This document shows, one piece after another, positions 11,654-31,469 of a stretch of 35,553 nt of DNA. The DNA comes from Comamonadaceae bacterium (lineage in GTDB: Bacteria > Pseudomonadota > Gammaproteobacteria > Burkholderiales > Burkholderiaceae_C): positions 1 to 35,553 of the forward strand of contig QYPX01000243.1 in NCBI GenBank assembly GCA_007280205.1, written 5' to 3'. The position numbers were made by a program, and so were the translations under genes. The notes under the pieces are model-generated. The model made no database searches. It had not been told where the DNA came from and was given only the letters and a program-made list of their open reading frames with translations. Positions within the stretch are counted from its first letter, which is position 1. Each line of letters opens with the position of its first letter.

Positions 11654-11708
11654 ACAGGTCCTTTAACAGATCACTCACTCAAACTATGCTGTGGCGTTCG
11701 CTGCTGAG

Positions 11709-11826
11709 AAAGCGTAGCGAGCAAGCCTCAGGCTAGGCGGACGGAGCGCAGCAACCGGAACGTACTTCCTGTACGTGAGGATTGCGAGCACCGCCCAACG
11801 ACGCATGAGGCTTGCGCAGTAGCTTT
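11709..11826. repeat. Long imperfect hairpin repeat between dehydrogenase/hydratase and thiolase genes
   Basis: An imperfect palindrome of 118 bases. The apex is ACGTAC (11760-11765), loop TTCCT, GTACGT (11771-11776). Outer arms pair as AAAGC/GCTTT and GCAAGCCTCA/TGAGGCTTGC, with interrupted pairing between. It begins one base after the stop of the dehydrogenase/hydratase gene. There is no T run, so it is not a classic terminator. It resembles the REP/BIME-like interspersed elements of proteobacterial genomes and could stabilise the upstream mRNA or reduce readthrough to thiolase. No second copy was found in this window. Confidence 0.7.
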
Positions 11827-29222: not shown

Positions 29223-30443
29223 CTATTCACTCACGAAAGCCGTGTCAAACCCGTGCAACTTTAGCAAAGCGAATTTCTTGGCCTCAGCCAGATCCACCGC
29301 CACCATCTCCTGCACCATCTCATCAAGCGTGATCTCCGGCACCCAGCCCAGTTTTTCCTTGGCCTTGCTCGGATCCCCGAGCAGGGTTTCGACTTCGGTG
29401 GGACGGAAGTAGCGCGGGTCAATGCGGATGACCGGGATTTCCGAAGGCATGGATTGCACTTCGGAGCCCGCAATGACATCTTTAACGCCCGCAATGACAT
29501 CTTTAACGCCTGCCATCACAGGCTGAGGGTTTGTCCAATAACCGATTTCGTTGACGCCTTCACCCTCCCAGCGGATCTGCATTCCCAAGGCAGCGGCTGT
29601 TTTCTCGATGAACTGGCGTACGCTGTATTGCACGCCAGTGGCAATCACGAAGTCTTCGGGCTTGTCCTGCTGCAGCATCAGCCACTGCATGCGAACGTAG
29701 TCCTTGGCATGGCCCCAGTCGCGTAGCGCATCGATGTTGCCCATGAACAGGCACTCTTCAAGTCCCTGACTGATGTTGGCCAGGCCGCGGGTGATCTTGC
29801 GGGTGACGAAGGTTTCACCGCGGCGTGGGCTTTCGTGGTTGAACAGGATGCCGTTGCAGGCATAAATGCCATAGGCTTCGCGGTAGTTGACCGTGATCCA
29901 GTAGGCGTACATCTTGGCCACCGCATACGGACTTCTGGGGTAGAAAGGGGTGGTTTCCTTTTGCGGGGTTTCCTGCACCAGGCCGTAGAGTTCAGACGTC
30001 GAGGCCTGGTAGAAGCGGGTCTTACCCTCCAGTTTCAGGATGCGGATGGCCTCCAGAATGCGCAGGCTGCCCAGCGCATCAACGTCCGCCGTGTATTCCG
30101 GGCTCTCAAAGCTCACCGCCACATGAGACTGGGCGCCCAGGTTGTAGATTTCATCAGGCTGCGTTTCCTGAATGATGCGAATCAGGTTGCTGGTGTCGGT
30201 GAGATCGCCATAGTGCAATTTGAAATTGGCGTTCTCTATGTGTGGATCCTGGTAGATGTGATCGACACGCTGGGTGTTGAAAGAGCTGGCGCGACGCTTG
30301 ATGCCATGCACAACATAGCCTTTTTCCAGCAGAAACTCGGCGAGGTAAGAGCCGTCCTGGCCGGTGATGCCGGTGATCAGAGCAACCTTTGGTTGCTTTG
30401 CAGTGCCAAGTGCGGAGGATTGAGTGCTGGGTGGGTTAGTCAT
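29223..30443 (-). CDS. gmd: GDP-mannose 4,6-dehydratase with in-frame repeat insertion
   Basis: Converts GDP-D-mannose to GDP-4-keto-6-deoxy-mannose, the first step to GDP-L-fucose. It has the NADP loop [30 protein letters not shown], the catalytic STSELYG and [15 protein letters not shown], then RNEF-region equivalents and [20 protein letters not shown]. At 406 residues it exceeds the usual approx. 370. About 13 residues are an N-terminal extension. Roughly 20-24 residues (about 309-332) are an insertion made of 7-residue repeats ([21 protein letters not shown]) encoded by a short palindromic DNA repeat. The insertion sits just before the conserved [10 protein letters not shown] segment, so the enzyme may tolerate it as a surface loop. 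It follows fcl by 15 bases. Confidence 0.95.
29449..29519. repeat. Repeat-derived insertion with 21-base tandem duplication inside gmd
   Basis: Bases 29449-29478 read ATGGATTGC...CGGAGCCCGCAATGACA, a mutated copy of the palindromic element at the fcl-gmd junction. A 21-base unit, GCCCGCAATGACATCTTTAAC, is present exactly twice (29466-29486, 29487-29507), followed by a decayed third start (GCCTGCCATCAC, 9 of 12 matching). Because 21 is a multiple of three, the gmd frame is kept. Confidence 0.8.
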
Positions 30444-30457
30444 GATGGCGCCTGGTT

Positions 30458-30512
30458 GTCATGCCGGGCTCGATCCGGCATCCAAGGATTGCGGGTCGGA
30501 GCCCGCAATGAC
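30458..30512. repeat. Double-hairpin palindromic repeat at the end of fcl
   Basis: Two adjacent perfect inverted repeats: ATGCCGG (30461-30467) with CCGGCAT (30475-30481), and ATTGCGGG (30488-30495) with CCCGCAAT (30502-30509), the whole flanked by GTCAT/ATGAC. This is the layout of short interspersed palindromic repeats that I recall from beta- and gammaproteobacterial genomes. It provides the last 17 codons and stop of fcl, and lies just upstream of the gmd start, where an RNA hairpin could modulate gmd expression. Confidence 0.8.
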
Positions 30513-31469
30513 AGCTTGGTAATGTTGAAGGAAATCCTGATACGCGAGAGACAATCCTCGTGCCAAATCGATGTGGGCGTGCCATCCCAGCGCATTGAGG
30601 CGGCTGCTGTCCATCAGCTTGCGCGGTGTGCCATCCGGTTTGCTGGAGTCAAACTCAATGCGGCCGGAGAACCCGACAGCCCGGCCGACCGCCTGCGCCA
30701 GTTCGGCGATAGTGACGTCTGAGCCGTAACCGACGTTGATCTGGCTTTGCATCGGTTGGGTCTGTGCCTCATGCGTGGCTTTGGGCAGATTCATCACAAA
30801 CACGCTGGCTGCTGCCATGTCGTCGACATAGAGGAATTCACGCTTTGGCGAGCCGCTGCCCCAGATGGTGACACTTGGAGCATTGTGGGTCTTTGCTTCA
30901 TGGAAGCGCCGGATCAGTGCCGGAATCACGTGAGAGTTTTCTGGATGGTAGTTGTCGCCCGGGCCGTACAGGTTAGTCGGCATGACGCTGCGGTAATCAA
31001 CACCATATTGGCGGTTGTAGCTTTCGCACATCTTGATGCCGGCGATCTTGGCGATGGCGTAAGGCTCGTTGGTGGGCTCCAACGGGCCAGTCAGCAAGGC
31101 GGATTCGCTCATGGGCTGGGGCACCGCTTTGGGGTAGATGCAACTGGAGCCCAGAAACAAAAGTCTCTTGACACCGGCGCACCAGGCCTGGTGGATGACA
31201 TTGCACTGCACCATCAGGTTCTGGTAGATGAATTCGGCCGGATAGGTGTTGTTCGCATGAATGCCACCGACTTTGGCAGCAGCCAGATAAACCTGCTCCG
31301 GTCTTTCAGCTTCAAAGAAAGCCCGGACGGCCGCCTGATCGCACAAATCTAGTTCACGATGAGTGCGCGTCACCAGATGGGTCTGCCCCTGCCGCAGCAG
31401 GGACCGCACAATGGCCGAGCCGACCATGCCCTGGTGGCCAGCAACATAGATTTTCGGTTGATCGAGCAT
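30459..31469 (-). CDS. fcl: GDP-L-fucose synthase
   Basis: Bifunctional 3,5-epimerase/4-reductase giving GDP-L-fucose. The 336-residue protein has [45 protein letters not shown] with the active Cys, the catalytic [18 protein letters not shown], and [20 protein letters not shown], all standard for Fcl/WcaG. ATG at 31469 follows the rfbC stop by 7 bases; an open frame to 31610 is not used. The final 17 residues (from about 320, [14 protein letters not shown]...) have no Fcl counterpart and are translated from the interspersed palindromic repeat, so the native C-terminus was replaced or extended. Confidence 0.95.

Follow-up and report, generated by a model that had tools for sequence, protein, structure and literature searches.

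A palindromic repeat that lies alone inside a protein-coding gene is hard to interpret, as insertion preference and survival are inseparable in a single case. The locus described here raises this problem for an enzyme gene: how did repeat DNA come to lie in the reading frame of gmd, why in one loop, and what does it do to the protein? Palindromic repeats within genes, both REPs and Rickettsia palindromic elements (RPEs), are established (cited sections of PMC3733652 and PMC2229807); what is new here is a single enzyme loop that carries different REPs in many species. Among close relatives this loop forms a natural series (empty, with one REP, with a dimer, with three REPs, in several types and frames, and with tandem growth), and these natural alleles make the entry of REPs, their exchange and their effect on the enzyme directly testable. 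Among the open-licence PMC papers listed by searches for gmd or Rhodoferax together with REPs, and by searches for palindromic repeats within genes or coding sequence, none describes a REP hotspot in a Gmd loop.

A repeat-derived segment in gmd

The window, i.e. the whole stretch of 35,553 nucleotides that was analyzed, belongs to a draft genome of 4.19 Mb (G000, the focal genome; 276 contigs, 84% complete) and contains a minus-strand run of nucleotide-sugar genes: rmlB, rmlD, rmlA, rmlC, fcl and gmd. The gmd gene (29223-30443, minus strand) is an open frame of 406 residues (P0001) that was identified from its invariant alignment columns and from scores of 580 bits against the equivalog model TIGR01472 (cut-off 415) and 510 bits against PF16363. 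Its translation and alignment retain the catalytic motifs S/T-x-E, YxxxK and GxxRR, whose roles are described in the cited section of PMC3584063. By equivalog model and active-site residues, the gene is predicted to encode a GDP-mannose 4,6-dehydratase.

Loop lengths and an AlphaFold model delimit an extended loop just before the DPRYFRP segment (29433-29534, minus strand; P0001 residues 304-337). When aligned with homologues, the focal loop is 75 residues long as compared to 45 in the closest empty relatives, a gain of 30, and it exceeds the E. coli-type loop (57) by 18; the first-pass annotation had rightly seen a longer loop here but put the excess at 20-24 residues. Within the loop, a 27-base stretch (GTCATTGCGGGCTCCGAAGTGCAATCC; 29451-29477 on the minus strand, in the sense orientation of gmd) encodes VIAGSEVQS, is followed by ATGCC and is a decayed CGTC-type REP monomer. 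It is identical at 24 of 27 positions to the right arm of a head-to-head REP dimer at the end of fcl (30458-30512), and it comprises one monomer, i.e. half of that dimer, with a mutated 3' stem half. Its local alignment to the REP consensus scores 39, as compared to a mean of 15.8 (sd 2.0) and a maximum of 27 for 1000 dinucleotide shuffles, which rules out a chance or low-complexity likeness. Taken by itself, the monomer shows no gain in folding over shuffles (z +0.56), as opposed to the fcl-end dimer (z -5.69), and the whole 83-base tandem region of gmd folds somewhat better than shuffles (z -2.09). The in-frame insertion of an interspersed palindromic repeat, as first proposed for this segment, is borne out by this identity and by the genomic copies described below. 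The narrower proposal that the segment is a copy of the fcl-end element holds as to relatedness, but not as to copying from that neighbor in particular; another genomic copy may equally have been the source.

The segment also contains the 21-base tandem expansion claimed for it: TRF detects an array of period 21 (29466-29510, minus strand; 2.1 copies, 100% matches) that repeats the left arm of the REP and a spacer, and in the codon listing a diverged extra unit (VMAGVKD) adjoins this perfect tandem. Left-arm units number three in focal gmd, two in G091 (locus L119) and G013 (L010), and one in G089 (L120), a comparison of species and not of strains; the nearest relative has one unit fewer. A length-variable tract had been suggested, and unit number does differ between related species, with no sign that it is used as a switch. 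An on/off switch is an unsupported role for the tandem because 21-base steps preserve the frame.

The repeat family of the focal genome

The cited sections of PMC3733652 describe CGTC-tagged REPs, including intragenic ones, as having a TGTC or CGTC end, a stem of ~8-9 bp that starts with A and T, a short loop and a CCA tail, and as forming head-to-head dimers in many copies, some of them in genes or at gene ends. The repeat studied here matches this description in tag, stem, loop, CCA tail, dimers and copy number. The 27-base pattern GTCATTGCGNNNNNNGNNNNGCAATCC, which the gmd copy itself fits, has 46 exact matches in the focal genome (counted without listing their positions), and its reversed control has none. 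The 67-base element used as a query gave at least 52 genome matches at E<=10 and 40 at E<=1.6e-6 (40 of 128 candidates scored), the gmd copy not being among those listed. An inverted second arm lies within 75 bases in 24 of 39 copies, namely those of the window and of 38 sampled loci of the focal genome. The tag is TGTC in the gmd copy and CGTC or TGTC ahead of most copies; a stem of 8-9 bp with an A-T start and a short loop is present in family copies (ATTGCGGG...CCCGCAAT), the 3' half being the mutated one in gmd. The loops measure 5-6 bases, as compared to 4-5 in the cited sections of PMC3733652, and the unpaired CCA tail is retained (CAATCCA in the gmd copy). On its tag, stem, CCA tail and many interspersed, mostly head-to-head copies, the focal repeat is assigned to the CGTC-tagged class. 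Twenty ORFs that span REP copies near the listed element matches (38 loci and the window) were compared with Pfam; nine matched, none of them interrupted by the REP, and the other 11 may be spurious. REP-like arms also occur in regular 42-base-spaced arrays at four loci of the focal genome (L191, L188, L189 and L205), 42 being twice the 21-base step of gmd.

REPIN/RAYT systems, in which paired inverted REPs occupy many sites (PMC3116915, PMC8266576), resemble the focal family in this pairing. Here, however, the only RAYT-like match of the focal genome, one to NF047646 (C145:5241-5636), reaches 68.5 bits, below the cut-off of 80, in an assembly that is 84% complete, and in place of the GTAG-type tag of RAYT-mobilised REPs the tag is GTC, mostly after C or T. 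The match lies ~19 kb from the sole element match on that contig among those listed (40 of 128 candidates scored). Across the genus, 81 of 89 genomes have an NF047646 match, 57 of them above the cut-off, and G090 has none despite 105 repeat matches. These comparisons establish no link between the repeat and a RAYT gene.

Palindromic elements within protein genes of Rickettsia were reportedly described by Ogata et al. in 2000. The likeness to such elements pointed out in the first-pass annotation is sound, as the focal repeat too lies in frame within a working enzyme gene, and RPE-4 and RPE-6 of R. conorii, together with Neisseria dRS3 (CGTC-1), are placed in the CGTC class in the cited sections of PMC3733652. 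The focal repeat does not match the RPE type of 105-146 bp (length as given in the cited section of PMC2229807), a long unit inside many different protein genes, whereas here the unit is 27 bp long and its target is one loop.

Repeats in the same loop of related bacteria

The comparison drew on 40 relatives, on 80 contigs from named genomes (the best 80 among 592 confirmed stretches), on 89 members of the genus and on 399 family genomes as sources of Gmd homologues. A gmd match was present at E<=1e-80 in 55 of the 89 genus genomes (truncated or distant matches, e.g. G053, G088, G054 and the second matches of G014 and G101, being left out) and at E<=1e-165 in 118 of the 399 family genomes, from which 27 new loci and 20 regions were read. 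The DNA of 187 distinct loops, which are nearest matches and form a non-random set, was scored against four REP consensus types. Fifteen loops contain REP DNA, with scores of 32-76; the sixteenth scores 23 and the highest of 18,700 shuffles 31, so that the lowest filled loop (L238, 32) is barely above the top shuffle of any loop. Thirteen filled loops come from 12 genus genomes (G000, G013 twice, G016, G019, G043, G071, G073, G078, G089, G090, G091 and G104) and two from other genera of the family (L210 in G276 and L238 in G258), i.e. 14 genomes in three genera, and most of the surveyed genomes look draft or metagenome-assembled.

The first or best REP is sense-oriented in all 15 filled loops, the second arm of the L010 dimer being antisense, and the inserts span four REP types, three frames, one dimer (L010) and one triple insert (L210; scores 38, 51 and 55). 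Type A is read as VIAGS.PQSM and type B as VIASEARQSM, whereas type C is read in a frame other than that of A as HSREGGNP(CP), and type D (L131) in a frame other than those of A and C as SLRGSEADAAIHA. Homologues with a like peptide carry repeat DNA, and the element has further copies in the focal genome; neither of the two outcomes that the first-pass annotation had named as refuting was observed. We take the type C inserts (GTCATTCCCG...CGGGAATCC, coding for HSREGGNP) to have the form of Neisseria dRS3; their setting differs, being the gmd gene of Rhodoferax-type bacteria and of a relative. Within the genus, type C loop inserts sit in genomes that have type C pattern matches (10 in G013, 20 in G019, 1 in G016 and 3 in G104, gmd included); the focal genome has 0. 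Unrelated inserts lie between similar flanks in L040 and L165. Empty alleles make up 25 of 126 loop rows, and loops with neither a scored REP nor another recognised insert range in length from 45 to 71. Some REP-rich genomes have an empty gmd (G007 with 92 copies, G095 with 49), so that filling is not predicted by copy number by itself, and the draft genome G091 holds both a filled and an empty copy. The cited sections of PMC3733652 note one same-site case, recB of two Xanthomonas species, other such genes being hit at different sites; here, in contrast, a single enzyme loop contains REPs of four types across 14 genomes and three genera, with one triple insert and 21-base tandem growth.

The repeats are largely confined to this loop within the gene. 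At 198 gmd loci (216,489 bp of gmd), counted without ten loci that repeat others and without the REP and RAYT loci, 19 REP matches scoring at least 32 lie inside gmd, 17 of them in the loop, and the other two fall in a pair of G013 gmd copies with internal deletions; one member of this pair is also filled in the loop. The remaining 716,718 bp at these loci contain 20 matches outside gmd.

State of the enzyme and history of its alleles

Pairwise substitution rates are similar with and without the insert: the filled pair L001-L119 has a dN of 0.044 and a dS of 0.61 (dN/dS ~0.07), and the filled-empty pair L001-L039 a dN of 0.043 and a dS of 0.71 (dN/dS ~0.06). These low ratios indicate that gmd is under strong purifying selection outside the loop. 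The AlphaFold model of the focal enzyme (mean pLDDT 73.5; numbering is that of P0001 minus one), for which the best solved-structure matches are the Gmd structures 7kf3 and 1db3, positions the insert between strands 299-302 and 335-340. Within the insert, pLDDT falls below 50 at residues 316-331, as it also does in the conserved stretches 156-169 and 194-210; the structural argument is weak because low pLDDT is not specific to the insert. Read in this way, the model suggests that the insert forms the tolerated tip of a hairpin, away from the catalytic core.

A codon tree of 45 gmd rows, built without the loop columns (L131, L165, L167, L171, L145, L173 and the family-level loci were left out), intersperses filled alleles with empty ones and implies at least 10 filled/empty changes, though its bootstrap had not settled. 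Supported mixed groups join L001 and L119 (filled) with L039 (empty; 100/99, inner order not resolved), L120 (filled) with L020 and L141 (empty; 97/92), and L043 (filled) with L147 (empty; 99/98). With 12 filled and 21 empty rows (12 rows of other loop lengths being excluded), a single filled clade is rejected (delta lnL 299, AU p 0.0001), as it is when the 3' part is tested by itself (p 0.008), and a single clade is rejected for type A (p 0.0006) but not for type C (p 0.15); these p-values lean low because a first tree had been seen before the groups to be tested were named, and the gene tree itself may be misled by recombination.

Explanations of the filled loop

We consider it likely that a CGTC-tagged REP entered the gmd loop, decayed there and grew by tandem duplication, and that this loop is a tolerated site that repeatedly receives or exchanges REPs. 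A REP copy would have been inserted, without loss of frame, into the gmd loop that precedes DPRYFRP, point mutations would have eroded it, and 21-base tandem duplication would then have lengthened the segment. The loop presumably tolerates inserts because it forms the tip of a hairpin and no part of the catalytic core; repeated entry or exchange may have come about by new insertion, by recombination between the ends of REPs or by the transfer of gmd alleles, and selection would have removed inserts that landed elsewhere in the gene. The inserted peptide itself is most likely neutral or nearly so.

How many insertions this history involved is bound up with a rival reading, in which a single ancient insertion made the extended loop (GYW[LT]NPP...P.EVPV) and was followed by descent, replacement of the REP core, allele transfer and deletions back to the empty state. 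We give this reading a substantial chance, though one well short of even. After the REP, 13 of the 15 filled loops have the sequence CCATGCC regardless of type or frame, whereas in the focal genome the gmd copy is the only one of 39 read that has it; the extended loop may therefore be partly shared by descent with its REP cores replaced, which would leave few insertions that are truly independent. The similar flanks of L001, L119, L120, L010, L043, L121, L122 and L040 (whose insert is unrelated), the two left-arm units common to L119 and L010, and the stretch ATGCCCCC(C)GGAAGTCCC shared by L043 and L210 point in the same direction. Against a single origin, rows with this flank type do not form one clade (AU p 7e-6; 3' part alone p 5e-5), left junctions and frames vary, and type C loops and L124 do not have the NPP left flank. 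The stretch in L210 has one C more than in L043 and adjoins its REP in a different frame, which suggests that the frame may be re-set downstream of the REP. A bolder reading, that the loop serves as a landing pad in which REP cores are repeatedly swapped across genera through common ends (GTCATT, AATCCATG) with the frame re-set just downstream, mobile-like repeats thereby rewriting one part of a conserved surface-sugar enzyme again and again, is on the whole unlikely. The C run after ATGCC can be ruled out as a general frame setter, as its lengths do not track frame: it is 5 in L043, L121 and L122 and also in L173, which is in another frame, 6 in L210 and L158, 7 in L012, and 4 in L023, L238 and L131.

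That the loop is a selected, adjustable part, in which repeat number or REP type tunes the assembly, stability or regulation of Gmd, would agree with the variation in unit number among relatives, the confinement of REPs to one loop and the single orientation of the first REP. We nevertheless hold it to be improbable: no peptide is conserved across four types, three frames and the unrelated inserts of L040 and L165, empty alleles are common, and the filled-empty comparison is as low in dN/dS as the filled pair L001-L119. The orientation is partly explained by survival, which is lowered in antisense because type A, read by hand, contains a stop in one of its three frames on that side. An assembly or binning artefact might be suspected in a draft of 276 contigs that is 84% complete, since short repeats break assemblies, but the inserts lie in frame in open genes, several on long contigs (L121 on 263 kb, L012 on 117 kb and L124 on 122 kb), and a usual read exceeds the 45-base tandem in length, so that we regard this as very improbable. 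Ordinary variation in loop length, with REP likeness arising by chance or from low complexity, fits the natural range of Gmd loops (45 to 71) and has next to no chance of being correct given the focal score of 39 over a shuffle maximum of 27 and the clear gap between the fifteenth and sixteenth loops (32 vs 23). Of these readings, we prefer that of a tolerated loop that repeatedly receives or exchanges REPs.

The end of fcl and further observations

The fcl gene (30459-31469, minus strand), which by its NF047922 score (519 bits, cut-off 500) is predicted to encode a GDP-L-fucose synthase of 336 residues, has a REP-coded tail. The last 17 residues and the stop codon are supplied by the head-to-head dimer (arms 30458-30483, plus strand, and 30486-30512, minus strand), and the NF047922 match stops at residue 318. 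Among 117 distinct fcl ends, five carry REP DNA in several frames with scores of 37-55 (the focal gene, L040, L138, L131 and L012), an example of a REP-made C-terminus being DFLKTVIPAYAGIHLPA; by eye, L210 and L158 have Fcl tails that resemble these, with scores below that needed for listing.

Several loops resemble repeats without reaching the REP score. Loops of length 51 (AVIAGTTQET, AVVPGALRE) look by eye like decayed REPs and were left uncounted, and repeat-like inserts occur in L125 and L126 (SVPSPQSSSEP) and in L076 (SPITNHESPIT). The genomes G093 and G097 have 64 and 128 matches of a TCATTCCCG-type pattern, with many closely spaced inverted pairs among the matches listed, and their gmd loops are of the 54-length type with no REP score. 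Two neighboring gmd copies of G013 (locus L173, at G013:C437) share the same internal loss (~residues 60-200) and have a REP stretch in its place, and one of the two also carries a type C REP in the hotspot loop. Finally, Rfam reports a match to the sRNA sX9 (RF02228, a family described from Xanthomonas) in the window at 11702-11776 on the minus strand, with 48.8 bits at a gathering threshold of 44.
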